From Arenicola marina (lineage: Eukaryota > Annelida > Polychaeta > Arenicolidae), in contig OZ025255.1 of NCBI GenBank assembly GCA_964019135.1, positions 6,324,001 to 6,388,000 of the forward strand: DNA of 64,000 nucleotides, given 5' to 3'. The notes under the pieces are model-generated. The model was not told the origin of the DNA. It saw only the letters and a list, made by a program, of their open reading frames with translations, and searched no databases. Positions 23,750 through 56,057 of this stretch are shown here, piece after piece. How positions within the stretch are numbered: the first letter of the stretch is position 1; every line of letters starts with the position of its first letter. The position numbers and the translations under genes were made by a program.

Positions 23750-25437
23750 TTAGTTAAAATGGATGTGCTCTTGCACTAAGTGTTGCATTAGTTCGCTTTG
23801 ACCGAAGCGAATGAGTGCCTTTGCTTTTAGCTCTGCTAGTCTCTCTTTTATGGGGGTGATACCTGCAAGCTCATATAGGGTGCTAGGTCTGGTGATCAGG
23901 GGCTTTCGCAAGGCTACTCTGAGGGCTTTGTTTTCCAGGATCTGGAGTTCATTTAGCCTGGAGGGGGGAAGGTCGGCAGTTAGTACGCTGCTGTATTCCA
24001 TAACCGGGCGAATGAAGGTCTTATAGAGCATAACTAGGGTTTTTGGGTTGGCCCCCCAGTTAGTGCCTCTGATTCTCCTCATGAGGCCGATCCTTGCTCT
24101 TGATATTTTTGATGTGACCGGCCATGGTAAGCTTCCAATCCATGGTAACTCCCAGAAGCGTGACTTCCTTTACCCCCTCGAGTTTAGTGCGATAGAGGTA
24201 CAGTGGGGTAAGGTCACGTGTTTTTTTGTTAGTAAATAAGATAAACTGGGTTTTACGGGCATTTAGCTTTACTCGCCAGAGAGCGCACCAGTCCTCTAGC
24301 TCGTCCAGCTCTCTCTGGAGGGCGGGCATGATAAATCGTGGGTTTATATTAATTGACCATAGACCCAAATCGTCAGCAAACTGAGACTTGGAGGAGCGGT
24401 TAGTGGGGTTGTTAGGGATGTCGTTGACATAGATCAGAAATAAGAGGGGGCTCAGAACAGAACCTTGGGGGGTACCGGCGTTTAGGACTACTTCGTCTGA
24501 TAGGGCATCACCTACTCTAACTTTTATGGTTCTGGCGTTTAGGAAAGAAGATAGAATTCGTGTTAGCTTTGTGGGCAGACCCAGTTTTAGTAGTTTATAT
24601 TTTATGCCGTCGTGCCACACGGAGTCGAACGCTTTTTCCACATCTAGCAGGATGGCCCCGGCTGACCATTTGTTTGTTAGACACTTTTTAACGGTACTGC
24701 CGAGTCTGTAGATGTGTTCGGTGGCTTCCATGCCTTTGCGATAAGCTCTCTGCCATTTGTTGAAGAAGTTTCTCTCGTTTAGATGAGAGGTTAGTCTGGC
24801 AGAGAGGATCTTCTCAAAGAGTTTGCCTAGGCACTTTATTAGAATGATGGGGCCGAAGTTTATTGGGACTGAGTGGTCCTTTTTGGGTTTGGGGATCATG
24901 GTGCCGATCGCTGATTTCCACGTTTTAGGGTAGTAACCTATGGTTAGGCAGGCGTTATATATGTTTTTTACGGACTGGACGGTGTCATCTGGGAGTTTTT
25001 TAATGAGGAGATAGGAAATCCTGTCTTCTCCGGGGGCAGACTTCAGTTTTAGGGTTTTTGCTATGTCAGCAATCTCCTTGGTAGAGATCGGAGCCACAGC
25101 TGGGTCGTTATCACCGTTCTCTTCTGAGGGGTCAGTTTTTAGGTTTAGCGAATCGGCTTCGTTACGAACGAATTCTTCGACTTCCTCTTTAAAGTCGTCG
25201 TCGAAGTTTGGACCTTCGTGGGTGTTATGGATGTGGGAAAGAGAAGTGGCGAAGGTATCGGCGGCCTCTTCGTTGCTGCTAGTGCAACTGCCGTCTGGAA
25301 GTTTGAGGGTGGGAGTCTTGTGGGATTTCTTTTTATTGCCAGTGAGGCGGTTGAAAGTCGCCCAGAACTTTTTCCCAGAGGTAGAGTTGAGAGAGGAGGT
25401 GGCAGCTTGCCATTGGTTCTGACGAAAGCGTTTTATT
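23750..25437 (-). pseudogene. LINE ORF2, 3' part: reverse transcriptase and C-terminal domain
   Basis: Translates from the insertion edge at 25437 down to the TAA at 23750-23752. RT motifs in order: SAPGEDRIS (fingers), MIPKPKKD, LLDVEKAFDSVWHD (motif A aspartate), AGTPQGSVLSPLLF (motif B), QFADDLGLW (motif C, FADD at 24369-24380), then LLGVTMDWKLTMAGHI (motif E/thumb). The C-terminal part, RPSTLYELAGITPIKERL, is a Jockey-type post-RT domain. A one-base frameshift near 24095 moves the last ~110 residues into the next frame. One RT position is unusual: INFGPIILIK stands where YRPISLL is expected. No RNase H domain follows. The non-coding stretch 23396-23749, rich in G runs on the plus strand, is probably the 3' UTR. 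Confidence 0.9.
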
Positions 25438-25529
25438 ACTGACAGAAGTTGAAAACTTCTGTCAGTATAGTACTATGTTCGGTTTGTAAATTTATTTGTT
25501 ACTGACAGAAGTTGAAAACTTCTGTCAGT
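25438..25529 (+). other. Duplicated 5' terminal hairpin of unit 1
   Basis: Two copies, 63 bp apart, of a perfect 29-nt palindrome (25438-25466 and 25501-25529): 13-nt arms ACTGACAGAAGTT / AACTTCTGTCAGT with loop GAA. The first 11 nt are the inverse of the internal repeat at each 3' end (for example 31033-31043). Unit 2 has one copy (31068-31096); unit 3 has none. Confidence 0.9.
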
Positions 25530-25685
25530 ATAGTACTATGTTCGGTTTGTAAATTTGTAAATTAGTTTGTTTGTTTGTTTGTTTGTCATCGCATTGTAGG
25601 GCGCATCGTTACATGTAGGATTGCTATATTGCACCTAGAGATAGATATGAAAAATTGTGAGGCTAAGTTCGTTAACGGTGTATGT

Positions 25686-25704
25686 AGGTCAAAGGTCAAG
25701 GTCA
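25686..25704 (+). promoter_or_regulatory. Triple AGGTCA direct repeat, unit 1
   Basis: Three nuclear-receptor half-sites in direct orientation, AGGTCA-A-AGGTCA-AGGTCA (a DR1 overlapping a DR0). The motif is kept exactly in all three units. In animals a DR1 can bind RXR, HNF4 or COUP-TF-type receptors; activity here is not shown. Confidence 0.55.
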
Positions 25705-26020
25705 CAGCGATTTTTTGAAAAAATAACGTAAAACGCTCATATCTCCGTTAATATTAGAGCTAGAGACGTCGGATCAGTTTCATAACGTGCTACTAGATAC
25801 GGCGCAACTTTCATACATTGTTCACTTTTTGACGCGTCATACTCATTTTCGAGGAAAACGTCGTTTTATGTTTTTCGAAAAACGCAAAATATGACCTTGA
25901 ACGGCTTTTCTATAGTTTGACCCATTTCGGTTAAAGATATCACTCTATGCCTCTAACACGTCATAGAAATATGGATGACAATAAGTTTTGTGAAATCTGA
26001 GATTTCGCGGATACGTGCTA

Positions 26021-27078
26021 TGACGTCACGGTGACGTCACTTCCGGTACATTAAAAAAATCGCCAAAAATCGGAAAAAAATCACAAAAAACTGCGAGTGG
26101 ACTCATCTTGCGTCAAATGTGGTCCTATGTTTGCTTGTAACATAAAAACGGTATGTTCCTATCTTACTTCCCATTCTAGAGCTGGCGCAAAATTCTCTAT
26201 GGGAATCTCCATGTTAAAAACCTCAATCCTTTATCATTACAGTCACACTTTGTCGCATAATTCAGAAGTGCCTTTTTCAAACAGTACACAAAAAAATTAC
26301 GTACTGTAAGACGGTACCCAGCAGAGGTTATCCATTGCCTGTGTGATTCGACCCGGAAATGACGTCACAGGAAATTGTCAAATATTTCCCCATTGTGAAA
26401 GATAGGGATTTTTGGCGCTTGCAGGGGATCCCACGGGCGTCCTATTGAAGCCATCGCTCTATGCTTTCAGTTGTAGATGGACACTAGTGGGATGAGCCAT
26501 TACCTATAAACACGGCGATATAGCCCTGTAACTTTTCGGTATATAGTCGAACGCGTTTAACATGGGACCCTATGGAGATAATCAAACTTACTTCAATATG
26601 ACGTACTTCCGGTTGAGCGATTTCACTTCGCTTTACCACAGTGCTAGATGTGGATGAGTATAAGAGACTCAGGGTAGGCTGACGGCAAACGTTAGTCTCA
26701 GTTTCGTTTCCATGGCAACCGAAGATTTTCCCAATGATAAAGTATACAAATTCCCTCTAATTTGGAAAATTCGTCAAAAATCGAAAAAACTAGCTACACC
26801 TTCGATCTTTCCGTATAATGGTAGGGAAGATATGTCTCCAGATTACTATTGGCAGTAAAGCATTATTATCTTTTACATCTTATCTGCAGAGTCTTTTCTT
26901 CGTCTGCTCGTTTTTCACTTATCCGTAATGGTGAAGAATAGCAATTTTCGGTAATTAGGTGAAGCTATATCTGAAGAACTAACAGACCTACCGCCGTTCT
27001 AATCAACGTTTTGGATTGAGGGCATAAATGTTTGTGTTTAGATATTTGGACGTTGCCGTGCGTCATGCCATGACGTCA
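26021..27078 (+). promoter_or_regulatory. CRE-like TGACGTCA palindromes in unit 1 leader
   Basis: Exact TGACGTCA octamers at 26021, 26032, 26360 and 27071. The second is followed by CTTCCGG, an ETS-type core. Such octamers are CREB/ATF sites in animals. The same positions are occupied in the other units. Confidence 0.5.
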
Positions 27079-27269
27079 CCATAACGTGATCGCTCTTGAG
27101 AAGGAAATTTCATGTTCACTTAAACTCTAATATAGCATTAAATTGGCGAGCGGAAGATGCCTTACACGACGCGATCCTCACGTCACCGGCACAAACAACG
27201 GTTTTACGTGTAATTCCGTTAATATCTGTTAATGCTCATTGCACATTGCTCAAAATAGAGCCTGCGGTG

Positions 27270-27562
27270 CGCACGTTGTCGGATGAATGCGCGATTTGGC
27301 TCAAATGTCCCGTTATACGCTCTGTTTAGTCCGAATTGTCCCCCGTATAGGCGCTGTTTATCCAAAATTGCCCCCTATATGCGCTGTTCAGCTCAAATGG
27401 CCGGGTATATTCGCTATTTAGCCCAAATTGCCCGTTATACGCGCTGTTTAACCCAAATTGCCCGTTAGATGCCCAGTGTACCTCAAATTCCCGGTTATAC
27501 CTGCTATTTAGCCCAAATTGCCCGTTATGTCCGATATTTAGCTCAAATTGCCCGCCGAAAGC
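27270..27562 (+). repeat. ~30-bp minisatellite, unit 1
   Basis: About nine degenerate copies of a 28-32 bp unit of the form GCTATTTAGCCCAAATTG followed by CCCGTTATACGC. The same family appears in unit 2 (shortened) and unit 3, and a diverged form recurs in each unit's tail (here 30690-30930). Confidence 0.85.
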
Positions 27563-27574
27563 TCTAATTTTTGA

Positions 27575-28197
27575 ACTAAAAGCTTCATTTTGCCAACAGA
27601 AAGCTCCATTTTGCCAACAGAAAGCGCTATTTTGTCAACAGAAAGCTCCATTTTGCCAACAGGAAGCTCCATTTTGCCCACAGAAAGCGCTACTTTATCA
27701 ACAGAAAGCTCCATTTTGCCAACAGAAAGCTCCATTTTGCCACCAAAAAGCGCTATTTTGCCAACAGAAAGCTCCATTTTGCCCGCAGAAAGCACTATTT
27801 TATCAACAGAAAGCTCCATTTCGCCACCAGAAAGCGCTATTCTGTCAAAAGAAAGCTCCATTTTGCCCACAGAAGGCGCTATTTTATCAACAGAAAGCTC
27901 CATTTTGCCAACAGAAAGCTCCATTTTGCCACCAGAAAGCGCTATTTTATCAACAGGAAGCTCCATTTTGCCTACAGAAAGCGCTATTTTGTCAACAAAA
28001 AGCTCCATTTTGCCAACAGAAAGCACTATTTTATCAACAGAAAGCTCCATTTTGCCACCAGAAAGCGCTATTTTATCAACAGGAAGCTCCATTTTGCCTA
28101 CAGAAAGCGCTATTTTGTCAACAGAAAGCTCCATTTTGTCAACAGAAAGCTCTGTTTTGTCAACAGAAAGCTGTTTTGTCAACAGAAAGCTCTATTG
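27575..28197 (+). repeat. 21-bp minisatellite, unit 1
   Basis: About 29 copies of a 21-bp unit such as AAAGCTCCATTTTGCCAACA followed by G, with a second variant containing AGCGCTATTTTGTC. The two variants alternate irregularly. Because 21 is a multiple of 3, long frames stay open on both strands (over 200 residues of SILPTES on plus and ELSVDKIALSVGKM on minus). That is expected of the repeat and not evidence for a protein. Confidence 0.95.
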
Positions 28198-28404
28198 GGC
28201 ATAAGTTGCTCTTCCAGGCTGCCAGCTATGCTGAATTGCCCTCTGAAGGCCATATTTGGCCCGCCGAAAGCTCTATTTACCTCAAATTATGCCTTAAAAG
28301 CTCTATTTGGGCCAAATTGTATGTGTAATGGCCTACTTAGCCAAATTTACTGACTAAAACTCTACTTTGCCCGCTGAAACCTTTATTTGACCCAACTTGT
28401 CAAC

Positions 28405-29360
28405 TGAATGCACTAATTGACCCCTGATATCCCAATTTGACCTCTAATATCCAGATTTGACCTCTCGGATCCAGATTGACCTCTCAGATCCAGATTTGAT
28501 CCCTCAGATCCAGATTTCACCCTTCAGATCCAGATTTGATCCCTCAGATCCAGATCTGACCTCTAATATCCAGATTTGACCCCTCAGATCCAGATTTGAC
28601 CCTTCAGATCCAGATTTGATCCCTCAGATCCAGATTTGACCTCTCAGATCCAGATTGACCCCTCAGATCCAGATTTGACCCTCAGATCCAGATTTGACCC
28701 TTCAGATCCAGATTTGATCCCTCAGATCCAGATTTGACCCTCGGATCCAGATTTGACCCTTCAGATCCAGATTTGATCCCTCAGATCCAGATTTGACCTC
28801 TCAGATCCAGATTGACCCCTCAGATCCAGATTTGACCCTCAGATCCAGATTTGATCCATCAGATCCAGATTTGACCTCTTAGATCCATATTGACCCCTCA
28901 GATCCAGATTTGACCCTCAGATCCAGATTTGATCCATCAGATCCAGATTTGACCTCTTAGATCCATATTGACCCCTCAGATCCAGATTTGACCCTCAGAT
29001 CCAGATTTGGTCCTTCAGATCCAGATTGGACCTCTCAGATCCAGATTTGACCTCTCAGATCCATATTGACCCCTCAGGTCCAGATTTGACCCTCAGATCC
29101 AGATTTGATCCATCAGATCCAGATTTGACCTCTTAGATCCATATTGACCCCTCAGATCCAGATTTGACCCTCAGATCCAGATTTGATCCTTCAGATCCAG
29201 ATTGGACCTCTCAGATCCAGATTTGACCTCTCAGACCCATATTGACCCCTCAGATCCAGATTTGACCCTCAGATCCAGATTTGATCCTTCAGATCCACAT
29301 TGGACCTCTCAGATCCAGAATTGACCTCTCAGATCCAGATTGATCCCTCAGATCCAGATA
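28405..29360 (+). repeat. ~19-bp GATCCAG minisatellite, unit 1
   Basis: About 49 copies of an 18-20 bp unit, GATCCAGATTTGACCCTCA with variants (TTGATCC, TTGACCTCT, CCATATTGACC). Variants recur in the same order, showing higher-order blocks. It fades into irregular single copies between about 29360 and 29850. Confidence 0.95.
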
Positions 29361-31031
29361 TCATTCACAGACGCCTATTTTGCCTCTCAGATCCAGATTG
29401 ACCTCTCAGCTCCCTATTCGACCTGGACATCCACATTTGCCCTCTCAGATCCCGAGTAGTCATCTGGCATCCCCACTAGACCCGTGAGACCCAGATTTAA
29501 TCTGTCGGATCCAGATTGGACTCATATGATTCTTATTGACTCCCTCATAACCTGATGGAAGCCGCCAGATAGAGATTTGACAACTAGGATGCAGATTGAC
29601 CCGTCGCATCCCTATTTGACCTTCAAATCCCGATTGGACCTTGGTGATCCTGATTGAACATTGCTAATCCAGATTGAACCCAACGAAACCAGCTTTGACC
29701 CGTCGTATACCAATGTGTCCCACGGATCCCGTTTCGAACCGTCGAATTCGATCCTGCACATCTCGATTTGTCCCACACAACCCTGATCGACCCATCAGAT
29801 CCCTATTGGTCCCGCGAATCCTGATTAGAGCTCCCGCATCCCTATTCGAACACCCTGCGGACCCTCACTTGCGGAAGACAACCCAAGGCATCCTCGATAC
29901 ACGCCTGATCACGTCAGAGGGGTGATTTGTTTAGTCCTCAAAAGAATGACCAGGGGCCACGGTACTGTCATTCCAACACATACCCCCAGGAAATCCGGAA
30001 ACAAAATTTGGGGAAAATTTCACCAAAATGTCATGCAGCGGCAACGTAAGAGACGACCTTGGGCAACAATACACACCATTTGGCCTACTAACTTTAAAAT
30101 TTTTTTTTTTTTTTTTTGTTTTTTTTTTTTTAAGTCCACACTAGGTCGGCACGAGCATTTGTAATACCATTCACTGAAGCCGCTCACCTAATTCCGAGGC
30201 CCCGTCTTGACCTCAAAACCACGCTATCATATTCAATGTAAAGTTCAAGCCAGGGGACCGAGCATATGTACTCAATGTACCGGAATCTAGAAATGGCCCT
30301 CATTCCCTTAATAATCATCGTGGAGGGTCGCGGTTTGGATCACCATGTTCAGAAAGACACGCTCTTTGACCCAAAGTCCATTTTCGTCAGTATCGTTTGC
30401 TTAATAGCGACGCTAGAGAGTCGGGACTGGTTTCAAAGGACGTGCAAACGTCGACTTTGGTGAGGAATCCGCATTCGCTTCTAGTCTAGCACGCTTAGTT
30501 TTGACGCTGGAGGGCTCCGTAATTTAGCAATGATGAGTCCGAGAACAGGCATAAGGGCGGGACCAAGGACACGTAGAAAGTCGGGATTTGGCCGAATTCA
30601 CTCAAAATGGCGCCCTCTATCTGGGAAAACAGCCCGCGTTGAACAGCAGCCGTTAGATTGTGCTATTCCAGCATCCGCATCGTAGAGGTCCAATTTGGGC
30701 CAAATTGCGCTTTCAGCGAGCACAATACGGCTTTCAGTGGGCAATGTGGGCTAGAAGGCCTTCGGATATCAGCATTATTGAGCCCAAATTGGCCATTGAA
30801 GGCCATGTTTAGCCCCAAATTGGCCACTGAGGGCCGTAATTATTCCAATTTGCCCGTTTATAGCGCTATTTAGCCCACGTTGTTCGTTCAAGGAGCTGTT
30901 GAACCCAATATGCCCACTGAAGGCATCATGTAGCCAGGATGAGGCAAAATCAGCTTATAGTATATGTGTTTCTGCATGTCATCGCCTGTACCATATTTTC
31001 GGCGCATAAACGGTGATCTGAAAATGAAGTC

Positions 31032-31067
31032 ACTTCTGTCAGTACCTCAGCCTACGGCTGTCTTGTT
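31032..31067 (+). other. 3' terminus of unit 1 and junction with unit 2
   Basis: Internal inverted repeat ACTTCTGTCAGT (31032-31043), hairpin CAGCC-TAC-GGCTG (31048-31060), then TCTTG, two Ts and directly the 5' palindrome of unit 2 at 31068. No filler DNA lies between units. Confidence 0.85.
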
Positions 31068-31252
31068 ACTGACAGAAGTTGAAAACTTCTGTCAGTATAG
31101 TACTATGTTCGGTTTGTAAATTAGTTTGTCTGTTTGTTTGTTTGTTTGTTTGTCATCGCATTGTAGGGCGCATCGTTACATGTAGGAATGTTATATTGAA
31201 CCTAGAGATAGATATGAAAAATTGTGAGGCTAAGTTCGTTAACGGTGTATGT

Positions 31253-31271
31253 AGGTCAAAGGTCAAGGTCA
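31253..31271 (+). promoter_or_regulatory. Triple AGGTCA direct repeat, unit 2
   Basis: Same arrangement as in unit 1, at the equivalent distance from the 5' hairpin. Confidence 0.55.
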
Positions 31272-31587
31272 CAGCGATTTTTTGAAAAAATAACGTAAAA
31301 CGCTCATATCTCCGTTAATATTAGAGCTAGAGACGTCGGATCAGTTTCATAACGTGCTACTAGATACGGCGCAACTTTCGTACATTGTCCACTTTTTGAC
31401 GCGTCATACTCATTTTCGAGGAAAACGTCGTTTTATGTTTTTCGAAAAACGCAAAATATGACCTTGAACGGCTTTTCTATAGTTTGACTCATTTCAGTTG
31501 AAGATATCGCTCTATGTCTGTAACATGTCATAGAAATATGGATGACGATGAGTTTTGTGAAATCTGAAATTTCGCGGATACGTACTA

Positions 31588-32808
31588 TGACGTCACGGTG
31601 ACGTCACTTCCGGTACATTAAAAAAATCGCCAAAAATCAGAAAAAAATTCCAGAAAATTGCGAGTAGACTCAACTTACGTCAAATGTGGTCCTATGTTTG
31701 CTTGTAACATAAAAACGGTATGTTCCTATCTTACTTCCGATTCTAGAGCTGGCGCAAAATTCTCTATGGGAATCTCCATGTTAAAAACCTCAATCCTTTA
31801 TCATTACAGTCACATTTTGTCGCATAATTCACAAGTACCTTTTTCAAACGGTACACAAAAAATTTACGTACTGTAAGACGGTACCCAGCAGAGGTTGTCC
31901 ATTGCCTGTGTGATTCGACCCGGAAATGACGTCACAGGAAATTGTCAAAATTTTCCCCATTGTGAAAGATAGGGATTTTTGGTGCTTGCAGGGGCTCCCA
32001 AGGGCGTCCTATTGAAGCCATCGCTCTATGCTTTCAGTTGTAGATGGATAGTAGTAGGATGAGCCATTAACTATAAACAAGGCGATATAGCCCTGTAACT
32101 TTTCGGTCTATAGTCGAACGCGTTTAACATGGGACCCTATGGAGATAATCAAACTTCCTTCAATTTGACGTACTTCCGGTTATGCAATCTCACTTTGCTT
32201 TACCTCGGTGCGAGATCTGGACGTGTACAAGAGACTCATGGTAAGCTGACGGCAAACGTTAGTCTCAGTTTCGTTTCCATGGCAACCGAAGATTTTCCCA
32301 ATGATAAAGTATACAAATTCCCTCTAACTTAGAAAATTCGTCAAAAATCGGAAAAACTAGCTAGACCTTCGATCTTTGCGTATAATGGTAGGGAAGATAT
32401 GTCTCCAGATTACTATTGGCAGTAAAGCATTATTATCTTTTACATCTTATCTGCAGAGTCTTTTCTTCGTCTGCTCGTTTTTCACTTATCCGTAATGGTG
32501 AAGAATAGCAATTTTCGGTAATTAGGTGAAGCTATATCTGAAGAACTAACAGACCTACCGCGGTTCCAATCAACGTTTTGGATTGAGGGCATAAATATCT
32601 GTGTTTAGGTATTTGAACGTTGCCGTGCGTCATGCCATGACGTCACCATGACGTCATGACGTCATAATTTGATAACCTTTATTACTCAACTATTATACCT
32701 TATAGCGACTACCGGTTGATTTGACGCTGTACCTTATATCAAGGCACAAGTGCTGCAATGCGTAACTTTTTTTGCAGTACCGAAACGTGTGCGTCAAAAA
32801 TGACGTCA
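31588..32808 (+). promoter_or_regulatory. CRE-like TGACGTCA cluster in unit 2 leader
   Basis: Exact octamers at 31588, 31599, 31927, 32638, 32649, 32657 and 32801. Those at 32649 and 32657 abut directly. The dense group at 32638-32664 falls where unit 1 has lost sequence. Confidence 0.5.
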
Positions 32809-33224
32809 TAGCTAACGTGCTCCTAAAAAAATGTTGGGTTTGCTTCATTTTCAGCCACTTTGGCAATAGCTGTCATAACCCGAGTTGATAAGTAGGTATA
32901 TTAAAGAAATAGAAGCCATCTTGAGCATTTTCGCGAACGTCGAATGACGTATTATTAGATAAAAAGAAAAATTCGTAGCGCCATTCATAACGAGTCGAGC
33001 AATCGCTCTTGAGAACGAAATTTCATGTTCACTTAAACTCTAATATAGCATTAAATTGGCGAGCGGAAGATGCGTTACACGACGCGATCCTCACGTCACC
33101 GGCACAAACAACGGTTTTACACGTAATTCCGTTAATATCGGTTAATATATGTAATTCTGTAATATTGAGCAATGTGCTCATTGCACATTGCTCAAAATAG
33201 AGCCTGCGGTGCGCACGTTGTCGG

Positions 33225-33415
33225 ATGAATGCGCTATTTGGCTCAAATTTCCCGTGATGCGCGCTGTTTAGCCCGAATTGTCCCCGTATAGGCGCTGTTT
33301 ATCCAACATTGCCCCCATATATGCGCTGTTCAGCTCAAATGACCGGATATATTCGCTATTTAGCCCAAATTGCCCGTTATGTCCGATATTTAGCTCAAAT
33401 TGCCCGCCGAAAGCT
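33225..33415 (+). repeat. ~30-bp minisatellite, unit 2 (short)
   Basis: About six degenerate copies of the TTTAGCCCAAATTGCCCG family, fewer than in units 1 and 3. Confidence 0.8.
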
Positions 33416-33424
33416 CTAATTTTT

Positions 33425-34175
33425 GAACTAAAAGCTCCATTTTGCCCACAGAAAGCGCTATTTTGTCAACAGGAAGCTCCATTTTGCCCACAGAAAGCGC
33501 TATTTTATCAACAGAAAGCTCCATTTTGCCAACAGAAAGCGCTATTTTGTCCACAGAAAGCTCCATTTTGCCCACAGAAAGCGCTATTTTATCAACAGAA
33601 AGCTCCATTTTGCCAACAGAAAGCGCTATTTTGTCCACAGAAAGCGCTATTTTGTCAACAGGAAGCTCCATTTTGCCACCAGAAAGCCCTATTTTGCCAC
33701 CAGAAAGCGCTATTTTGCCACCAGAAGCTCCATTTTGCCAGCAGAAAGCGCTATTTTGCCATCAGAAAGCTCCATTTTGCCACAAGAAAGCGCTATTTTG
33801 TCAACAGGAAGCCCCATTTTGCCCACAGAAAGCGCTATTTTGTCCACAGAAAGCTCCATTTTGCCCACAGAAAGCGCTATTTTGTCAACAGGAAGCTCCA
33901 TTTTGCCACCAGAAAGCCCTATTTTGCCTCCAGAAAGCTCCATTTCGCAAGCAGAAAGCGCTATTTTGCCACCAGAAAGCTCCATTTTGCCACAAGAAAG
34001 CGCTATTTGTCCAACAGAAAGCTCCATTTTGCCCACAGAAAGCGCTATTTTGTCAACAGGAAGCTCCATTTTGCCCACAGAAAGCGCTATTTTTATCAAC
34101 AGAAAGCTCCATTTTGCAAACAGAAAGCTCCATTTTGTCAACAGAAAGCTGTTTTGTCAACAGAAAGCTCTATTG
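33425..34175 (+). repeat. 21-bp minisatellite, unit 2
   Basis: About 35 copies of the 21-bp CAGAAAGC...ATTTTG unit, same two variants as in unit 1. Occasional 1-bp indels shift the open frames, as expected of non-coding repeats. Confidence 0.95.
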
Positions 34176-34474
34176 GGCATAAGTTGCTCTTCCAGGGTGC
34201 CAGCTATGCTGAATTGCCCTCTGAAGGCTATATTTGGCCCGCCGAAAGCTCTATTTACCTCAAATTATGCCTTAAAAGCTCTATTTAGGCCAAATTGTAT
34301 GTGTAATGGCCTACTTAGCCAAATTTACTCACTAAAACTCCATTTTGCCCGCTCAAACCTTTATTTTACCCAAATTGTCAACTGAATGCACTAATTGACC
34401 CCTGATACCCCAATTTGACCCTTACATCCAGATTTGACCCCTCAAATCCAGATTTGTCCTTTGAGATCCACTAG

Positions 34475-36625
34475 TGTCCATACGGTGAGATGGCTACAAT
34501 ATCCATCAAATGCTTACCATGAAAGCAATGAAGGTTACAATGTTACATATTTATTATCATAAACAAATATTATACATACATAAGGCCTACCATAGCTTCA
34601 TAATACAACTTATGGTGATCGATACATGAATTAATCATTCCTAGCAGCGAAATGAATCATTAAACAGAGAAATATACCGAAATCAGGCCAATCGCTAATA
34701 CATTGATGACCGATAAGTCCTTCGATAACTTGATCATCCAACGTATGGTGACCGATATATGAATTCATCATTCCTAGCAGCGAAATTAATCATTAAGCAG
34801 AGAAATATACTTAAATGAGGCCAATCGCTAATACATTGATGACCGATAAGTCCTTCGATAACTTGATCATCTAACATATGGTGACCGATACATGAATTCA
34901 TCATTTATAGCAGCGAAATTAATCATTAAGCAGAGAAATATACTTAAATGAGGCCAATCGCTAATACATTGATGACCGATAAGTCCTTCGATAACTTGAT
35001 CATCTAACATATGGTGACCGATACATGAATTCATCATTTATAGCAGCAAAATTAATCATTAAGCAGAGAAATATACTTAAATGAGGCCAATCGCTAATAC
35101 ATTGATGACCGATAAGTCCTTCAATAACTTGATCATCCAACGTATGGCGACCGATACATGAATTCATCATTTATAGCAGCGAAATTAATCATTAAACAGA
35201 TAAATATACTTAAATCACACCCATCGCTAATACATTTATATCCGCTAACTTTTTAATACAACGTATCATAATCGTGGCATGAATTAATCCTTATCGCATG
35301 ATATTCCACGTAATTCAAAACAATGGCGATAAATAATTGTGCAGTGCTGTATCTATCATTGCCTCGTCTCGTATTGGAGAAGCATGCATTCCTTCGGGGC
35401 GGCCCCCAGAATTGCCACCACTGCATATCCTGTAAATATATGTCTTAGTTGGAGTAACATGTATATCTCAGTCAGTTGATCAAGCCAATTGGCAATTCTA
35501 TTAGTAAAATAGACAGTTGAAGGCCAATTTGATTTAAAGAAAAACAAGTGGATTTGTTTAAGATTGGTACTTGGTACATGAAATATAACACACTATGCCT
35601 ATCCAGTGAGGCGGCGCGTTTTGGCTGAACTAGTTTCAAAAAAGTCATGTGACACTCGACATGTCATAAAATATAGCAGCACACCAGCCTTATTAAGCTG
35701 GGCGGCTCATATTGTCGCTCATTCAGGCATACCAAATTTACTAGTATTCCAGTACACACGTCGTTCTGCCCTCATCGAAGCAATTAGATACGCCAACCTT
35801 AGGTCAGACACTTTCAATACAATCGCACTAGACACTTACCTGCTTCACCTTTTAGCGAATTCAAATCCATTTTCGTTTTGGTTCGCCGCCCGGCCGCCCG
35901 CCAATCGTTGTTTAGGTTACACACCAATAGAAACCATCCCCATGTTAAGTAATGCAAAAACCCAAATTTGCAACCCCATGCTAGAAAAAAATCGGTAACC
36001 ATGTTTGACTATATGGACCATAGGAAATTATAGAGCAAGTATCCAACTTTATTTTAAAAACAAACAGAATATAGGTTCACGTGCGATATTTTTAGCTACA
36101 GCTACAGTATGACACCCCCCCCTAGCGTGACCCGCCGAAAATGAAACAACCAGCGAATCAGCATGTGATGAGGTCGACCGAACCACGCACCCGTAACGTC
36201 CGCAAGCATGATGAAATACGCCACAAATTAATGCAACAGGCAGTAATCCGGCCAATCATTTTGTAAAAGAAACAATATATACAAAGAAAGATATAACCAG
36301 TAACCATATAACCCTGGTATACCATCATATTTATACGCACTACTTGACGGTATATACTTTTTCTACATACGCACCACCTATACTATTGGTGTGTAACCTT
36401 TACGCTCACAACGAACGCCTGCCCAAGGCTCACTTTCTCTTCATGCATGTATCGGGGGTTTCAGGGCCGACGGCATTTCTCTATGGGAAAATCGCGATAG
36501 AATTGCTCTAGGACGCTTAGTTTGGCCGCTAGAGCGCTCGCAAGAGGTGCACCCCCCTTTGCCGAAGCTCCCATTATGAGTCAACGGCGATATCGACCGG
36601 CAATGCCTCTGCTTTGCAATGGCCG
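34475..36625 (+). other. Foreign middle segment of unit 2
   Basis: About 2.15 kb with no counterpart in units 1 or 3. The left third is a 133-bp tandem array; the rest (35286-36625) is unique. Near 36510-36540 it contains GACGCTTAGTTTGGCCGC, resembling the tail sequence GCACGCTTAGTTTTGACGC at 36721-36739, so the right part may be a diverged copy of the same tail. No convincing gene: the longest frame (35606-35998) opens at GTG. It could be an inserted element or a tail from another subfamily joined by recombination. Confidence 0.6.
34607..35285. repeat. 133-bp tandem repeat, five copies
   Basis: Repeat starts (AACNTATGGTGACCG) lie at 34607, 34740, 34873, 35006 and 35139, exactly 133 bp apart. 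A diverged, shorter copy follows at 35260. The units are AT-rich and nearly identical in the centre. Confidence 0.95.
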
Positions 36626-37263
36626 CCGTTTGCTTAATAGCGACGCTAGAGAGTCGGGACTGGTTTCAAAGGACGGGCAAACGTCGACTTTGGTGAGCAA
36701 TCCGCATTCGCTTCTAGCCTAGCACGCTTAGTTTTGACGCTGGAGGGCTCCGTAATTTAGCAATGATGAGTCCGAGAACAGGCATTAGGGCGGGACCAAG
36801 GACACGTAGAAAGTCGGGATTTGGCCGAATTCACTCAAAATGGCGCCCTCTATATGGGAAAACAGCCGGCGTTGAACAGCAGCCGTTAGATTGTGCTCAT
36901 CCAGCATCCGCATCGTAGAGGTCCAATTTGGGCCAAAATGCCCTTTCAGCGAGCCCAATACGGCTATCAGTGGGCAGTGTGGGCTAGAACGCCTTCGGAT
37001 ATCGGCATTATTGAGCCCAAATTGGCCATTGAAGGCCATGTTTAGCCCAAATTGGCCGCTGAAGGCCGTAATTATTCCAATTTGCCCGTTTATAGCGCTA
37101 TTTAGCCCACGTTGTTTGTTCAAGGAGCTGTTTAACCCAATATGCCCACTGAAGGCATCATGTAGCCAGCATGAGGCAAAATCAGCTTATAGTATATGTG
37201 TTTCTGCATGTCATCGCCTGTGCCATAGTTTCGGCGCATAAATGGTGAAATGAAGATGAAGTC

Positions 37264-37297
37264 ACTTCTGTCAGTACCTCAGCCTACGGCTGTCTTG
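37264..37297 (+). other. 3' terminus of unit 2 and junction with unit 3
   Basis: Inverted repeat (37264-37275) and CAGCC/GGCTG hairpin (37280-37292), then TCTTG. Unit 3 follows at once with a GTTT-like run but without the 29-nt 5' palindrome. Confidence 0.85.
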
Positions 37298-37417
37298 TTT
37301 GTTTTTTTGTCTGTTTGTCATTAGGATATAGGGCGCATGGTAACAGTTACGGTTGTCAGACTTAGCGTAGTGATAGATATTTGAAATAGCTCGGCTAAGT
37401 TCGTTATTGGCATATGT

Positions 37418-37436
37418 AGGTCAAAGGTCAAGGTCA
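37418..37436 (+). promoter_or_regulatory. Triple AGGTCA direct repeat, unit 3
   Basis: Identical AGGTCA triplet kept within the diverged leader of unit 3, where the surrounding sequence differs at many positions from units 1 and 2. Confidence 0.55.
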
Positions 37437-37752
37437 CAGCGATTTTTTGAAAAAAAAATTAAGAATGCGATTATCTTCGTTAATATTAGACCTAGAGAAA
37501 TGCGGTTAATTTCAGAATGTGCTACCGTTTAGACCGCATCTTTAAGCCATTGACCACTTTTTGATGCGTCGTACTCATTTTCGAGCTACATGACGTTTTA
37601 TGTTTTCTGAAAAACGCAAAAGATGACCTTGAATCGTTTTTCTTCGGTTTGACCTATTTAGGTTGAAGGTATCGCTTTGGTGTTCCGGGCCCTCATAGAA
37701 ATATGAATGGCAATAATCTCAGCGAAATCTGAGATTTTTCAGATCCGTCATA

Positions 37753-39116
37753 TGACGTCACGATGACGTCACTTTTGGTACATGGAAAAAATCGTCAAAA
37801 ATCGGAAAAAAATCAAACAAAATCAAAAGCGGCGTCATTTTATAGAAAATGGGGTCCGATGTTCGTCTGCATTATAAAAATAGTATGTTTCTATCTTACT
37901 TCCGGTTCTAGGGGTAACGGCATTTCCCTATGGGACCTCCAATGTTAAAGCCTTCAATCTCTCAGGCTGTGGAAAATTGTTTGCCCCGTATTTCATCGAT
38001 GCCTGCATGAAACAGTTTGGGGAATTTTTCTGCTGTTAAACGTGGTACCAAGTAGCCATGGTTCTTACGAGATGAAATTCGGACGAGAAATGACGTCACA
38101 GAATTTTTTTAAAATTTGCTCCATTGTGTAAGATGGGGATTTTTGGCGCTTGCACGGGCTCCCACGGGCGTTCTATTGAAGCCATCGCTCTATGCTTGCA
38201 GTTGTAGATGGATAGTAATAGGATGAACCATTAACTATAAACAAGGCGATATAGCCCTGTAACTTTTCGGTCTATAGTCGAACGCGTTTAACATGGGACC
38301 GTATGGAGATAATCAAACTTCCTTCAATTTGACGTACTTCCGGTTATGCAATCTCACTTTGCTTTACCTCGGTGCGAGATCTGGACGTGTACAAGAGACT
38401 CATGGTAAGCTGACGGCAAACGTTAGTCTCAGTTTCGTTTCCATGGCAACCGAAGATTTTCCCAATGATAAAGTATACAAATTCCCTCTAACTTAGAAAA
38501 TTCGTCAAAAATCGGAAAAACTAGCTAGACCTTCGATCTTTGCGTATAATGGTAGGGAAGATATGTCTCCAGATTACTATTGGCAGTAAAGCATTATTAT
38601 CTTTTACATCTTATCTGCAGAGTCTTTTTCTTCGTCTGCTCGTTTTTCACTTATCCGTAATGGTGAAGAATAGCAATTTTCGGTCATTAGGTGAAGCTAT
38701 ATCTGAAGAACTAACAGATCTACCGCCGTTCTAATCAACGTTTTGGATTGAGGGCATAAATGTTTGTGTTTAGATATTTGGACGTTGCCGTGCGTCATGC
38801 CATGACGTCACCATAACGTGATGACGTCATAATTTTATAACCTTTATTACTCAACTATTATACCTCGTAGCGACTACCGGTTGATTTGACACTGTACCTT
38901 ATATCAAGAGACAACTGCTGCGATGCGTAACTTTTTTTGCGGTACCAAAACGTGTGCGTCAAAAATGACGTCATAGCTAACGTGCACCTAAGAAATGTTG
39001 GGTTTGCTTTATTTTCAGCCTCTTTGGCAATAGCTGTCATAACCCGAGTTGATAAGTAGGTATATTAAAGAAATAGAAGCCATCTTGAGCATTTTTGCGA
39101 ACGTCAAATGACGTCA
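37753..39116 (+). promoter_or_regulatory. CRE-like TGACGTCA cluster in unit 3 leader
   Basis: Exact octamers at 37753, 37764, 38091, 38803, 38822, 38966 and 39109. Several sit in the diverged part and are still exact. Confidence 0.5.
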
Positions 39117-39349
39117 CGATGACGTATTATTAGATAAAAAGTAAAATTCATAATGAGTCGAGCAATCGCTCTTGAGAAGGAAATTTCATGTTCACTTAAA
39201 CTCTAATATAGCATTAAATTGGCGAGCGGAATATGCCTTACACGACGCGATCCTCACGTCACCGGCACAAACAACGGTTTTACGTGTAATTCCGTTAATA
39301 TCTGTTAATTGCTCATTGCACATTGCTCAAAATAGAGCCTGCGGTGCGC

Positions 39350-39645
39350 ACGTTGTCGGATGAATGCGCGATTTGGCTCAAATGTCCCGTTATACGCTCT
39401 GTTTAGCCCGAATTGTCCCCCGTATAGGCGCTGTTTATCCAAAATTGCCCCCTATATGCGCTGTTCAGCTCAAATGGCCGGGTATATTCGCTATTTAGCC
39501 CAAATTGCCCGTTATAGGCGCTGTTTAACCCAAATTGCCCGTTAGATGCCCAGTGTACCTCAAATTCCCGGTTATACTTGCTATTTAGCCCAAATTGCCC
39601 GTTATGTCCGATATTTAGCTCAAATTGCCCGCCGAAAGCTCTAAT
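39350..39645 (+). repeat. ~30-bp minisatellite, unit 3
   Basis: About nine degenerate units collinear with and nearly identical to those in unit 1 (27270-27562). Confidence 0.85.
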
Positions 39646-39654
39646 TTTCGAACT

Positions 39655-40490
39655 AAAAGCTTCATTTTGCCAACAGAAAGCTCCATTTTGCCAACAGGAA
39701 ACTCCATTTTGACCAACAGAAAGCGCTATTTTATCAACAGAAAGCTCCATTTTGCCAACAGAAAGCGCTATTTTGTCAACAGAACGCTCCATTTTATCAA
39801 CAAAAAGCTCCATTTTGCCAACAGAAAGCGCTATTTTATCAACAGGAAGCTCCATTTTTCCAACAAAAAGCGCTATTTTGGCAACAGAAAGCTGCATTTT
39901 GTCGACAGAAAGCTCCATTTTGTCAACAGAAAGCTCCATTGTGCCCACAGAAAGCGCTATTTTATCAACAGAAAGCTCGAGTTTGCCATTAGAAAGCGCT
40001 ATTTTGTCAACAGAAAGCTCCATTTTGCCCACAGAAGGCGCTAATTTGTCAACAGAAAGCTCCATTTTGCCCACAGAAAGCTCCATTTTGTCGACAGAAA
40101 GCTCCGTTGCCGCCAGAAAGCTCCATTTTGTCAACAGAAAGCCCCATTGTGCCCACAGAAAGCGCTATTTTATCAACAGAAAGCTCGAGTTTGCCACCAG
40201 AAAGCGCTATTTTGCCAACAGAAAGCTCCATTTTGCCCACAGAAGGCACTATTTTATCAACATAAAGCTCCATTTTGCCGACAGAAAGCGCTATTTTATC
40301 TAAAGAAAGCTCCATTTTGCCACCAGAAAGCTCCATCTTGCCTACAGAAAACGCTATTTTGTCAACAGAAAGCTCCATTTTGCCAACATAAAGCGCTATT
40401 TTGCCAACAGAAATCTCCATTTTGCCAACGGAAAGCTCCATTTTACCAACATAAATCTCTATTCTATTTTGTCAACAGAAAGCTCTATTG
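39655..40490 (+). repeat. 21-bp minisatellite, unit 3
   Basis: About 39 copies of the 21-bp unit, more diverged than in units 1 and 2. Open frames on both strands (up to about 240 residues) follow from the period. Confidence 0.95.
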
Positions 40491-40734
40491 GACATCAGTT
40501 GCTCTCCAAAGCCGCCAACTATGCTGAATTGCCCTCTGAAGGCTATATTTGGCCCGCCGAAAGCTCTATATATTGACCTCAAATTATGCCTTAAAAGCTC
40601 TATTTGGGCCAAATTGTATGTGTAATGGCCTACTTAGCCAAATTTACTCACTAAAACTCTATTTTGCCCGCTGAAACCTTTATTTGACCCAAATTGTCAA
40701 CTGAATGCACTAATTGACCCCTGATATCCCAATT

Positions 40735-43700
40735 TGACCCTCAGATCCAGATTTGACCCTTCAGATCCAGATTTGATCCCTCAGATCCAGATTTGACCTC
40801 TTGGATCCAGATTTGACCTCTCAGATCCAGATTGACCCCTCAGATCCAGATTTGACCCTCAGATCCAGATTTGACCCTTCAGATCCAGATTTGATCCCTC
40901 AGATCCAGATTTGACCTCTCAGATCCAGATTGACCCCTCAGATCCAGATTTGACCCTCAGATCCAGATTTGACCCTCAGATCCAGATTTGATCCCTCAGA
41001 TCCAGATTTGACCCTCGGATCCAGATTTGACCCTTCAGATCCAGATTTGATCCCTCAGATCCAGATTTGACCTCTCAGATCCAGATTGACCCCTCAGATC
41101 CAGATTTGACCCTCAGATCCAGATTTGATCCATCAGATCCAGATTTGACCTCTTGGAGCCATATTGACCCCTCAGATCCAGATTTGACCCTCAGATCCAG
41201 ATTTGATCCTTCAGATCCAGATTGGACCTCTCAGATCTAGATTTGACCTCTCAGATCCATATTGACCCCTCAGATCCAGATTTGACCCTCAGATCCAGAT
41301 TTGATCCTTCAGATCCACATTGGACTTCTCAGATCCAGAATTGACCTCTCATATCCAGATTGATCCCTCAGATCCAGATTTGATCCATCAGATCCAGATT
41401 TGACCTCTTAGATCCATATTGACCCCTCAGATCCAGATTGGACCTCTCAGATCCAGATTGACCCCTCAGATCCAGATTTGACCCTCAGATCCAGATTTGA
41501 TCCCTCAGATCCAGATTGGACCTCTCAGATCCATATTGACCCCTCAGATCCAGATTTGACCCTCAGATCCAGATTTGATCCCTCAGATCCAGATTTGACC
41601 TCTCAGATCCAGATTGACCCCTCAGATCCAGATTTGACCCTCAGATCCAGATTTGATCCATCAGATCCAGATTTGACCTCTTCGATCCAGATTTTACCTC
41701 TCAGATCCAGATTGACCCCTCAGATCCAGATTTGACCCTCAGATCCAGATTTGACCCTTCAGATCCAGATTTGATCCCTCAGATCCAGATTTGACCTCTC
41801 AGATCCAGATTGACTCCTCATATCCAGATTTGACCCTCAGATCCAGATTTGATCCTTCAGATCCAGATTGGACCTCTCAGATCCAGATTTGACCTCTCAG
41901 ATCCATATTGACCCCTCAGATCCAGATTTGACCCTCAGATTCAGATTTGATCCTTCAGATCCACATTGGACTTCTCAGATCCAGAATTGACCTCTCATAT
42001 CCAGATTGATCCCTCAGATCCAGATTTGATCCATCAGATCCAGATTTGACCTCTTAGATCCATATTGACCCCTCAGATCCAGATTTGACCTCTCAGATCC
42101 ATATTGACCCCTCAGATCCAGATTTGACCCTCAGATCCAGATTTGATCCCTCAGATCAAGATTTGACCTCTCAGATCCAGATTGACCCCTCAGATCCAGA
42201 TTTGACCCTCAGATCCAGATTTGACCCTTCAGATCCGGATTTGATCCCTCAGATCCAGATTTGACCTCTCAGATCCAGATTGACCCCTCAGATCCAGATT
42301 TGACCCTCAGATCCAGATTTGACCCTCAGATCCAGATTTGATCCCTCAGATCCAGATTTGACCCTCGGATCCAGATTTGACCCTTCAGATCCAGATTTGA
42401 TCCCTCAGATCCAGATTTGACCTCTCAGATCCAGATTGACCCCTCAGATCCAGATTTGACCCTCAGATCCAGATTGGATCCATCAGATCCAGATTTGACC
42501 TCTTAGAGCCATATTGACCCCTCAGATCCAGATTTGACCCTCAGATCCCGATTTGATCCTTCAGATCCAGATTGGACCTCTCAGATCCAGATTTGACCTC
42601 TCAGATCCATATTGACCCCTCAGATCCAGATTTGACCCTCAGATCCAGATTTGATCCTTCAGATCCACATTGGACTTCTCAGATCCAGAATTGACCTCTC
42701 ATATCCAGATTGATCCCTCAGATCCAGATTTGATCGATCAGATCCAGATTTGACCTCTTAGATCCATATTGACCCCTCAGATCCAGATTGGACCTCTCAG
42801 ATCCAGATTGACCCCTCAGATCCAGATTTGACCCTCAGATCCAGATTTGATCCCTCAGATCCAGATTGGACCTCTCAGATCCATATTGACCCATCAGATC
42901 CAGATTTGACCCTCAGATCCAGATTTGATCCCTCAGATCCAGATTTGACCTCTCAGATCCAGATTGACCCCTCAGATCCAGATTCGACCCTCAGATCCAG
43001 ATTTGATCCATCAGATCCAGATTTGACCTCTTAGATCCACGTTTTTACCTCTCAGATCCAGATTGACCCCTCAGATCCAGATTTGACCCTCGGATCCAGA
43101 TTTGACCCTTCAGATCCAGATTTGATCCCTCAGATCCAGATTTGACCTCTCAGATCCAGATTGACTCCTCAGATCCAGATTTGACCCTCAGATCCAGATT
43201 TGACCCTTCAGATCCAGATTTGATCCCTCAGATCCAGATTTGACCCTCGGATCCACATTTGACCCTTCAGATCCAGATTTAATCCCTCAGATCCAGATTT
43301 GACCTCTCAGAGCCAGATTTACCCCTCAGATCCAGATTTGACCCTCAGATCCAGATTTGATCCATCAGATCCAGATTTGACCTCTTAGAGCCATATTGAC
43401 CCCTTAGATCCAGATTTGACCCTCAGATCCAGATTTGATCCTTCAGATCCAGATTGGACCTCTCAGATCCAGATTTGACCTCTCAGATCCATATTGACCC
43501 CTCAGATCCAGATTTGACCCTCAGATCCAGATTTGATCCTTCAGATCCAGATTGGACCTCTCAGATCCAGATTTGACCTCTCAGATCCATATTGACCCCT
43601 CAGATCCAGATTTGACCCTCAGATCCAGATTTGATCCTTCAGATCCACATTGGACTTCTCAGATCCAGAATTGACCTCTCATATCCAGATTGATCCCTCA

Positions 43701-44370
43701 GATCCAGATTTGATCCATCAGATCCAGATTTGACCTCTTAGATCCATATTGACCCCTCAGATCCAGATTTGACCTCTCAGATCCATATTGACCCCTCAGA
43801 TCCAGATTTGACCCTCAGATCCAGATTTGATCCCTCAGATCCAGATTTGACCTCTCAGATCCAGATTGACCCCTCAGATCCAGATTTGACCCTCAGATCC
43901 AGATTTGACCCTTCAGATCCAGATTTGATCCCTCAGATCCAGATTTGACCCTCGGATCCAGATTGACCCCTCAGATCCAGATTTGATCCCTCAGATCCAG
44001 ATTTGACCTCTCAGATCCAGATTGACCCCTCAGATCCAGATTTGACCCTCAGATCCAGATTTGATCCATCAGATCCAGATTTGACCTCTTAGATCCATAT
44101 TGACCCCTCAGATCCAGATTTGACCCTCAGATCCAGATTTGATCCTTCAGATCCAGATTGGACCTCTCAGATCCAGATTTGACCTCTCAGATCCATATTG
44201 ACCCCTCAGATCCAGATTTGACCCTCAGATCCAGATTTGATCCTTCAGATCCATATTGACCCCTCAGATCCAGATTTGACCCTCAGATCCAGATTTGATC
44301 CTTCAGATCCACATTGGACCTCTCAGATCCAGAATTGACCTCTCAGATCCAGATTGATGTCTGATACAGA
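40735..44370 (+). repeat. ~19-bp GATCCAG minisatellite, unit 3 (3.6 kb)
   Basis: About 185 copies of the 18-20 bp unit, roughly four times unit 1. A block recurs with a ~1350-bp offset (for example 41478 and 42828 begin matching stretches). The expansion explains most of the length difference between units. Confidence 0.95.
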
Positions 44371-45924
44371 TATCATTCACAGACGCCTATTTTGCCTCTC
44401 AGATCCAGATTGACCTCTCAGCTCCCCATTCGACCTGGACATCCACATTTGCCCTCTCAGATCCCGAGTAGTCATCTGGCATCCCCACTAGACCCGTCAG
44501 ACCCAGATTTAATCTGTCGGATCCAGATTGGACTCATATGATTCTTATTAACTCCCTCATAACCTGATGGAAGCCGCCAGATAGAGATTTGACAACTAGG
44601 ATGCAGATTGACCCGTCGCATCCCTATTTGACCTTCAAATCCCGATTGGACCTTGGTGATCCTGATTGAACATTGCTAATCCAGATTGAACCCAACGAAA
44701 CCAGCTTTGACCCGTCGTATACCAATGTGTCCCACGGATCCCGTTTCGAACCGTCGAATTCGATCCTGCACATCTCGATTTGTCCCACACAACCCTGATC
44801 GACCCATCAGATCCCTATTGGTCCCACGAATCCTGATTAGAGCTCCCGCATCCCTATTCGAACACCCTGCGGACCCTCACTTGCGGAAGACAACCCAAGG
44901 CATCCTCGATACACGCCTCATCACTTCAGAGGGGTGATTTGTTTAGTCCGCTAATGAATGACCAGTGGCCATGGTGCTGGCTTCCCAACGCACACCCCCA
45001 GGAAATCCGGGAAATCCGGAAAAAAAGTCCACACTAGGTCGGCACGAGCATTTGTAATACCATTCACTCAAGCCGCTCACCTAATTCCGAGGCCCCGTCT
45101 TGACCTCAAAACCACGCTATCATATTCAATGTAAAGTTCAAGCCAGGGGACCGAGCATATATACTCAATGTACCGGAATCTAGAAATGGCCCTCATTCCC
45201 TTAATAATCATCGTGGAGGGTCGCGGTTTGGATCACCATGTTCAGAAAGACACGCTCTTTGACCCAAGGTCGATTTTCGTCATTATCGTTTGCTTAATAG
45301 CGACGCTAGAGAGTCGGGACTGGTTTGAAAGGACGGGCAAACGTCGACTTTGGTGAGGAATCCGCATTCGCTTCTAGCCTAGCACGCTTAGTTTTGACGC
45401 TGGAGGGTTCCGTAATTAAGCAACGATGAGTCCGAGAACATGCATTAGGGCGGGACCAAGCACACGTAGAAAGTCGAGATTTGGCCGAATTCACTCAAAA
45501 TGGCGCCCTCTATCTGGGAAAACAGCCCGCGTTGAACAGCAGCCGTTAGATTGTGCTATTCCAGCATCCGCATCGTAGAGGTCCAATTTGGGCCAAATTG
45601 CGCTTTCAGCGAGCCCAATACGGCTTTCAGTGGGCAGTGTGGGCTAGAACGCCTTCGGATATCGGCGTTATTGAGCCCAAATTGGCCATTGAAGGCCCTG
45701 TTTAGCCCAAATTGGCCGCTGAAGGTCGTAATTATTCCAATTCGCCCGTTTATGGCGCTATTGAGCCCACGTTGTTCGTCCAAGGAGCTGTTTAACCCAA
45801 TATGCCCACCCGAAGGCATCATGTAGCCAGCATGAGGCAAAATCAGCTTATAGTATATGTGTTTCTGCATGTCATCGCCTGTACCATAGTTTCGGCGCAT
45901 AAACGGTGAAATGAAGATGAAGTC

Positions 45925-45958
45925 ACTTCTGTCAGTACCTCAGCCTACGGCTGTCTTG
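45925..45958 (+). other. 3' terminus of unit 3 and right edge of the insertion
   Basis: ACTTCTGTCAGT (45925-45936), hairpin CAGCC-TAC-GGCTG (45941-45953), TCTTG, then LINE sequence beginning TTTTCC. The left edge of the array is preceded by GCGTTTTATT. Joining these flanks keeps the LINE frame, so the insertion lies between Ts of a T-rich stretch; the exact base is ambiguous. Confidence 0.8.
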
Positions 45959-55458: not shown

Positions 55459-55990
55459 AGTGCCCGACCCCTCACACACCAATAGCCTGACAGCCCGCCC
55501 CGGCCAAAACACGCCAATAGCCTGACTGCCCGCCCCGGCCAAAACACGCCAATAGCCTGACAGCCCGCCCCGGCCAAAACACGCCAATAGCCTGACTGCC
55601 CGCCCCGGCCAAAACACGCCAATAGCCTGACAGCCCGCCCCGGCCAAAACACGCCAATAGCCTGACTGCCCGCCCCGGCCAAAACACGCCAATAGCCTGA
55701 CAGCCCGGCCCGGCCAAAACACGCCAATAGCCTGACTGCCCGCCCCGGCCAAAACACGCCAATAGCCTGACAGCCCGCCCCGGCCAAAACACGCCAATAG
55801 CCTGACAGCCCGCCCCGGCCAAAACACGCCAATAGCCTGACTGCCCGCCCCGGCCAAAACACGCCAATAGCCTGACAGCCCGCCCCGGCCAAAACACGCC
55901 AATAGCCTGACTGCCCGCCCCGGCCAAAACACGCCAATAGCCTGACAGCCCGCCCCGGCCAAAACACGCCAATAGCCTGACTGCCCGGCC
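55459..55990. repeat. 35-bp satellite, ~15 units, related to the 71-bp array
   Basis: Units contain CGCCCCGGCCAAAACACGCC then AATAGCCTGA. CTG and CAG at the unit start alternate almost perfectly, so the array is in fact a 70-bp dimer. The core ACACGCCAATAGCCTGA and the C-rich left half match the monomers of the 1-22257 array. Edge units are degenerate. Three minus-strand frames (GRAVRLLACFGRGG...) are repeat artefacts. Confidence 0.95.
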
Positions 55991-56057
55991 CAACATTCGG
56001 GATTAATATAATATATGAACCAGAATACGGTCGTCTCATGAAATACTGTCAGTGTTA

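Follow-up and report, generated by a model that had tools for sequence, protein, structure and literature searches.

The DNA analysed here is a 64,000-nucleotide stretch of the genome of the annelid Arenicola marina (assembly GCA_964019135.1, contig OZ025255.1, here C8, positions 6,324,001 to 6,388,000; henceforth the window), in which three head-to-tail transposon units interrupt a long interspersed nuclear element (LINE). From sequence comparison we propose, with a probability of roughly 0.85, that the units belong to a HINE family, one of non-autonomous Helentrons, and that the array is nested, having been built by successive self-insertions at TTRTT sites. The window offers a decidable case for the origin of head-to-tail Helentron arrays, in that its empty site and the divergence of its units both point to successive self-insertion. 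The genome surveyed comprises 867 Mb in 762 contigs.

A nested array within a LINE

Three direct units end in CTTCTGTCAGT followed by a CAGCC/GGCTG hairpin, found at 31033, 37265 and 45926 as a first-pass annotation of this DNA had described. The annotation also had the first two units begin with the inverse motif ACTGACAGAAG. This motif is indeed present, at 25438, 25501 and 31068, but the first complete unit starts only at 25501, and 25438-25498 is a stub (Table 1). Filler-free junctions had been claimed throughout. Junction 1, where GGCTGTCTTGTT abuts ACTGACAG, has zero filler between the units; junction 2, however, does not join two complete ends, since unit 2 there meets a headless unit 3 whose missing first 61 nt are the stub. 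When rejoined to unit 3 (from 37298 onwards), the stub is identical to an intact locus, L004, at 123 of 124 positions. Furthermore, the 41 bases spanning the break are found without interruption at 19 places, L004 included: 17 carry one mismatch and two carry two, while the control gave 0. Units 1 and 2 thus sit inside the left end of unit 3.

The flanks of the whole composite rejoin the LINE frame at a T-rich site, as the annotation had it. The frame stays open through all 400 codons tested, and of the 23 places matching the joined flanks in the genome, 20 cross the join uninterrupted (best 99%), two of the three that do not being the window's own flanks. Comparison with empty sites, which the annotation had recommended, is consequently possible both for the LINE and for the subfamily of the older copy. 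Read by eye, one of the two sites (LINE and older copy) gained two T's and the other site about three; T|T insertion and a 2-bp TT duplication therefore look alike here; no target duplication beyond these T's was seen at the empty sites compared in the LINE.

Under the proposed course of events, an older copy (unit 3 with its stub) would have entered the LINE at a TTTTATT site. Unit 1 or unit 2 would then have entered at TTTG|TT, 61 nt inside the left end of this copy, severing the stub, and the remaining unit would have entered at the CTTGT|T or T|ACTG boundary to give the gapless junction. The order of units 1 and 2 is something we infer, as is rolling-circle copying of each unit. The units share one orientation because the TTRTT target lies on one strand, and since the element ends themselves contain TTRTT, self-insertion is possible at a copy's own ends.

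Table 1. Features of the array and its host LINE (window coordinates)
Feature	Position	Strand	Remarks
Host LINE, reverse-transcriptase side	24060..25436	-	RVT_1 in open reading frame 24060-25472; frame runs on across the rejoined flanks
Left-end stub cut off from unit 3	25438..25498	+	61 nt; 5' hairpin ACTGACAGAAG-TTGAAAA-CTTCTGTCAGT, then start of TTTR tract; broken at TTTG|TT
Unit 1, complete HINE copy	25501..31065	+	5565 bp; both ends located
Unit 1, central minisatellites	27290..29452	+	Periods of 30, 21 and 20 bp
Unit 1, 3' end	31033..31065	+	Inner inverted repeat CTTCTGTCAGT, hairpin CAGCCTACGGCTG, CTTG
Unit 2, complete HINE copy, of a sublineage other than unit 1's	31068..37297	+	6230 bp
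Unit 2, minisatellite counterparts	33261-34456		Plus 133-bp array at 34580-35236
Unit 2, 3' end	37265..37297	+	Over the last 70 bp (up to the first T's past CTTG), 100% identity with the 3' end that follows the C6 Rep-helicase
Unit 3 minus its first 61 nt	37298..45958	+	Body plus 3' end of the older copy into which units 1 and 2 went
Unit 3, minisatellite counterparts	39367-44355
Unit 3, 3' end	45926..45958	+	Also the end of the whole composite
Host LINE, endonuclease side	45960..46686	-	Exo_endo_phos_2 in open reading frame 45940-46686; empty sites elsewhere

Kinship of the units

The 5' comparison covers about 1.7 kb and 31 other sequences per unit (496 pairs overall), with copies selected by their likeness to the 5' end of unit 2, and the 3' comparison covers the last 1450 bp of 14 sequences. 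Across the 5' 1.7 kb, units 1 and 2 share 91.4% identity. The nearest compared relatives of unit 1 are L016 (96.0%) and L013 (95.9%), with unit 2 ranking 20th of 31, and those of unit 2 are L027 and L011 (96.9%), with unit 1 ranking 27th of 31. The 3' part of unit 1 is closest to L012 (97.1%) and that of unit 2 to L037 (97.0%). The two units themselves are 70.4% identical over the last 1450 bp, where they carry different 3' types that are similar only over the final several hundred bp. By these comparisons, units 1 and 2 are not sisters but come from different sublineages. Unit 3, finally, is unlike unit 1 in its 5' part (79.6%) and alike in its 3' part (95.9%), a pairing that shows the family to be mosaic.

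Family ends and copy number

Further copies with the same ends, which the annotation had proposed to look for, are abundant. The 28-base 3' end has 362 genome matches at up to one mismatch and the 33-base 5' end has 351 at up to two, with none for the reversed-pattern control in either case; the 3' end is thus not a chance pattern. Places were listed for 100 of the 362 3' ends and 100 of the 351 5' ends, all exact matches, and the spacing statistics were drawn from these 100 3' ends together with the 63 listed exact 5' ends on contigs C1-C6. Among the latter, 53 have a 3' end within 20 kb downstream, the span from 5' to 3' end being 1.8-7.5 kb in 52 of them and 13.9 kb in one. Units of 5.6 and 6.2 kb are therefore typical and only unit 3, at 8.7 kb, is long, so that, judged within this family, the earlier impression of 5.6-8.7 kb as very large for a non-autonomous member does not survive. 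The 20-bp minisatellite at 40714-44355 accounts for much of the extra length of unit 3, and the long open frames within the units fall mostly in minisatellite repeats.

The inverted ends are asymmetric: ACTGACAGAAG stands at the 5' terminus and its inverse CTTCTGTCAGT stops 22 nt short of the 3' terminus. The 3' hairpin, CAGCC-TAC-GGCTG, has a 5-bp stem when folded with RNA parameters. Nineteen 3' flanks were picked by hand from the 100 listed, with close pairs omitted, a sample that is uninformative on array frequency; terminal variants before the T's occur in it, with CTAG (four times) or CTAT (once) in place of CTTG (L084, L086, L090, L094, L097). A search of a phage collection with 1 kb of unit 1 gave no match.

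Target motif and insertion at the family's own ends

TTRTT stands ahead of 20 of the 23 5' ends scored (from 29 loci, six having been set aside for a family-end motif within 60 bases upstream), and at least two of the 23 (L025, L027) are still preceded by family-like sequence. Exact 3'-to-5' junctions number 53, with patterns that permit zero mismatches and hence miss diverged junctions. By hand count, their spacers measure 0 nt in 23, 4 in 12, 8 in 16 and 12 and 16 in one each, and are made up of TATT and TGTT; 14 of these junctions come from a 4856-bp array on C6 and eight from C212, with 31 remaining. Exact doubled 5' ends among the matches listed are spaced by 51, 59, 63, 71 and 83 nt, all a multiple of 4 plus 3. 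At L025 (C5:13435693-13436249), five left ends follow one another before a single body, two of them a variant with a different hairpin loop. Their raw spacings, read from the sequence, are 60, 64, 87 and 71; the first two hairpins are one nt longer and the third four nt longer, so that the tract seems to hold its register. Taken from alignment ends, the spacings at C8:6399654-6399773 would be about 42 and 72, outside this register.

With a pattern that likewise permits zero mismatches, a 3' end runs into a headless copy at nine places, junction 2 of the window included, and the bridge is the family's own tract in eight of them, the case on C725 being less clear. The first 100 listed 3' ends contain 13 adjacent pairs within 15 kb, 12 of them same-strand, where random placement expects 0.44, and a rough count over the 63 listed 5' ends gives five fused to a 3' end and seven close 5'-end pairs. 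With about 7 TTRTT per kb in the fetched loci, some 6 million sites would exist genome-wide; with self sites assumed to number roughly 2,000, self-insertions by chance would come to far below one case, although the observed count may be inflated by inherited composite ends and later duplication. We tentatively consider that the element termini could be docking sites for the family's own transposition machinery, the TTTR tract (in 4-nt steps) and CTTGT|T attracting copies far above TTRTT alone. If so, ordered same-strand arrays of mixed lineage would grow at existing copies. The self-insertion excess and the 4-nt register are what most deserves further work. At L033 (C18:15016462), a family copy is joined directly to a 3' end that belongs to a related family, has hairpin CAGCCTCCGGCTG and likewise finishes in CTTGTT; the end of another family has thus also served as target.

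Rep-helicase loci sharing the 3' end

The HINE family probably owes its mobility to Rep/helicase/endonuclease Helentrons with the same 3' end, acting in trans. Helitron_like_N has 53 genome matches, whose 3' sides were inspected for only a minority. At C6:13433834, the family 3' end lies 9.4 kb downstream of the Rep locus and agrees with unit 2 in all of its last 70 bp. This locus encodes DUF6570, OTU, Helitron_like_N and PIF1 helicase domains, with an Exo_endo_phos endonuclease in a neighbouring frame, and its Rep frame is interrupted by a stop and a frame change. A copy on C12 is 98% identical to it in the Rep region and, 8.9 kb downstream, matches the 929-bp 3' region at 97%, end included. 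A weaker relative on C18 matches at 84% over most of the 929-bp region and at 95% over 42 bases of the end. As far as the 3' end goes, these loci are candidates for the autonomous relative with these termini that the annotation had thought worth seeking. The Rep loci at C8:19654800 and C19:11792046 were rejected as partners, with no family 3' end in the stretches fetched. Within the stretch compared, only the last 70 bp are common to the units and the C6 Rep element, and the units therefore do not seem to have arisen from it by simple deletion. Upstream of the C6 Helentron frame lies a high-copy repeat (L077, C6:13426171-13428447) whose inverted ends measure about 64 bp.

Other arrays of the family

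At C6:34650303-34713461 (partly L075), 14 HINE junctions lie exactly 4856 bp apart and are 100% identical in the 928 bp used for comparison. One edge was inspected, and there the repetition stops about 700 bp from a junction and not at the element ends, so that we rejected a rolling-circle product and find that tandem duplication fits better; this array is a satellite-like amplification that includes the 3'-5' junction. C212:770-30286 holds eight HINE junctions, mostly 3480 bp apart, and the same contig has a Rep-helicase match at 48790. A larger minus-strand array at C8:1904329-1973718 (about 1.95 Mb) has at least nine 3' ends within 70 kb; several sublineages mingle in it, and left ends recur. 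Three successive 3'-part pairs in it are 69.2, 74.6 and 68.5% identical, the all-pairs median being 73.7%. Over the six 5' neighbour pairs compared there and in the window (two from the window), the nearest relative is the neighbour in 0 of 12 directed comparisons. With hundreds of HINE ends, a likely partner, mixed arrays and regular satellite-like arrays on the same junctions, all in one genome, the passage from transposon to satellite becomes open to study.

Origin of the array

The first-pass annotation offered two origins, a single rolling-circle event or successive self-targeted insertions, and it is the second that the data favour. In the first, a circular or bypassed intermediate would have been copied repeatedly and inserted as a head-to-tail multimer, which would account for the gapless joins and the single orientation and would agree with the 12 of 13 close pairs of listed 3' ends on the same strand. 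Against it stand the different sublineages of units 1 and 2 and a unit 3 that is interrupted instead of starting at its end; given this nesting and divergence, we reject it for the window locus and consider it quite improbable. Segmental tandem duplication or unequal crossing-over fits the periodic array at C6:34.65-34.71 Mb, but in the window element ends and a TTRTT site mark the joins, and the units are strongly divergent, which makes this origin the most improbable we considered.

Several points weigh against successive self-insertion, or against parts of it. Another array might have supplied units 1 and 2 as a ready-made mixed dimer, which would have entered unit 3 within its left end. 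The C8:1.95 Mb array holds both unit 1-like and unit 2-like elements, and bypass of the 3' terminus is a model put forward in the part of the published account used here (PMC5148889). By end positions, though, the unit 2-like element there (L011 at the 5' side, L037 at the 3' side) lies upstream of the unit 1-like one (L013 and L012), with one element between, which is the reverse of the window's order, and several other elements are at least as close to unit 2 as the element that comes next after the unit 1-like one (L012, 96.7%); we regard a transferred dimer as unlikely. Independent insertions alone can hardly account for the two regular arrays, whose spacing is 4856 bp in one and mostly 3480 bp in the other. 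The 5' neighbour pairs of the array at C8:1.95 Mb are 87.1, 96.9, 95.7 and 96.3% identical (percentiles 17, 87, 74 and 79 of the 496 pairs), so that three of the four are fairly alike and alone would not contradict a local origin; the 5' copies in these comparisons were preselected by similarity to unit 2, and the 3' set holds only 14 sequences. As to the partner, the stretches read upstream of the Rep frames (C6:13425001-13431320 and 3.5 kb at C12:14899166-14902700) did not yield the family 5' end, so that it is the 3' end that supports the partnership; at C12, moreover, the Rep gene and the 3' end were read as separate stretches, without the DNA between. Successive self-insertion nevertheless remains our reading of the window.

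Surroundings of the array

The left third of the window (1-22259) is occupied by a 22-kb satellite with a 71-bp unit (about 314 copies, 94% matches). To the right of the array, an open frame with several C2H2 zinc fingers lies at 54443-55060, and neighbouring 35-bp and 12-bp tandem arrays, with consensus CGGTCGGTATGG and long open frames on both strands, lie at 55474-57790.

Comparison with known systems

The Helentron/HINE identity given in the annotation is supported, at the level of sequence features, by the asymmetric inverted ends, the 3' hairpin, the TTRT|T insertion and the Rep/helicase/endonuclease loci with the same 3' end. A canonical Helitron (Helitron1, with 5' TC and A-T insertion) was rejected, the 5' end here being ACTG after TTRTT. 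A DNA transposon with terminal inverted repeats was rejected as well: the repeat is terminal at the 5' side and internal at the 3' side, and there is no duplication beyond the T's (no search for a DDE transposase was made). The symmetric terminal repeats with fixed target duplications that the annotation had named as contrary evidence were thus not seen.

The published systems are compared here on the basis of portions of their accounts. An endonuclease fused to Rep/helicase is the naming feature of Helentrons (PMC4067079). As described there, mite HINEs are non-coding and have palindromic inverted repeats, whose distance from the terminus is 2-4 nt on the 5' side and 38-60 bp on the 3' side. 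They also show a 3' palindrome, T-rich insertion, tandem repeats in some, and Rep/helicase/endonuclease partners (PMC4067079). The Arenicola family resembles them in these kinds of feature, its own partner being a probable one; unlike them, its units are mostly 1.8-7.5 kb and carry long multi-period minisatellites, and its inner 3' repeat stops 22 nt from the end. Cg_HINE of Crassostrea gigas comprises non-autonomous Helentrons with satellite-like central repeats, a T-rich target and modular combinations of flanks and repeats, a make-up that the Arenicola family shares. For Cg_HINE, no autonomous partner could be related in the part of that account used, whereas the Arenicola family is tied to Rep-helicase-endonuclease loci by its 3' end (PMC7492417).

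The FoHeli elements of Fusarium and relatives, of Helitron2 type, have asymmetric terminal inverted repeats with hairpins and insert into themselves; for elements of this type, duplicated 5' termini of less than 200 bp, one case of nesting and, in Metarhizium acridum, a tandem of three copies are also described (PMC5148889). The Arenicola family matches them in its asymmetric ends with hairpins, self-insertion, short duplicated 5' termini, nesting and tandem triple, and differs in inserting at TTRT|T, FoHeli1 and 2 inserting after TNAT (PMC5148889). The window array is thus a clear but essentially ordinary example of a pattern already described for related transposons. For the Metarhizium tandem, insertion and rolling circle were left undecided in the portion of the authors' account drawn on, whereas in the window the empty site and the divergence of the units favour insertion (PMC5148889).

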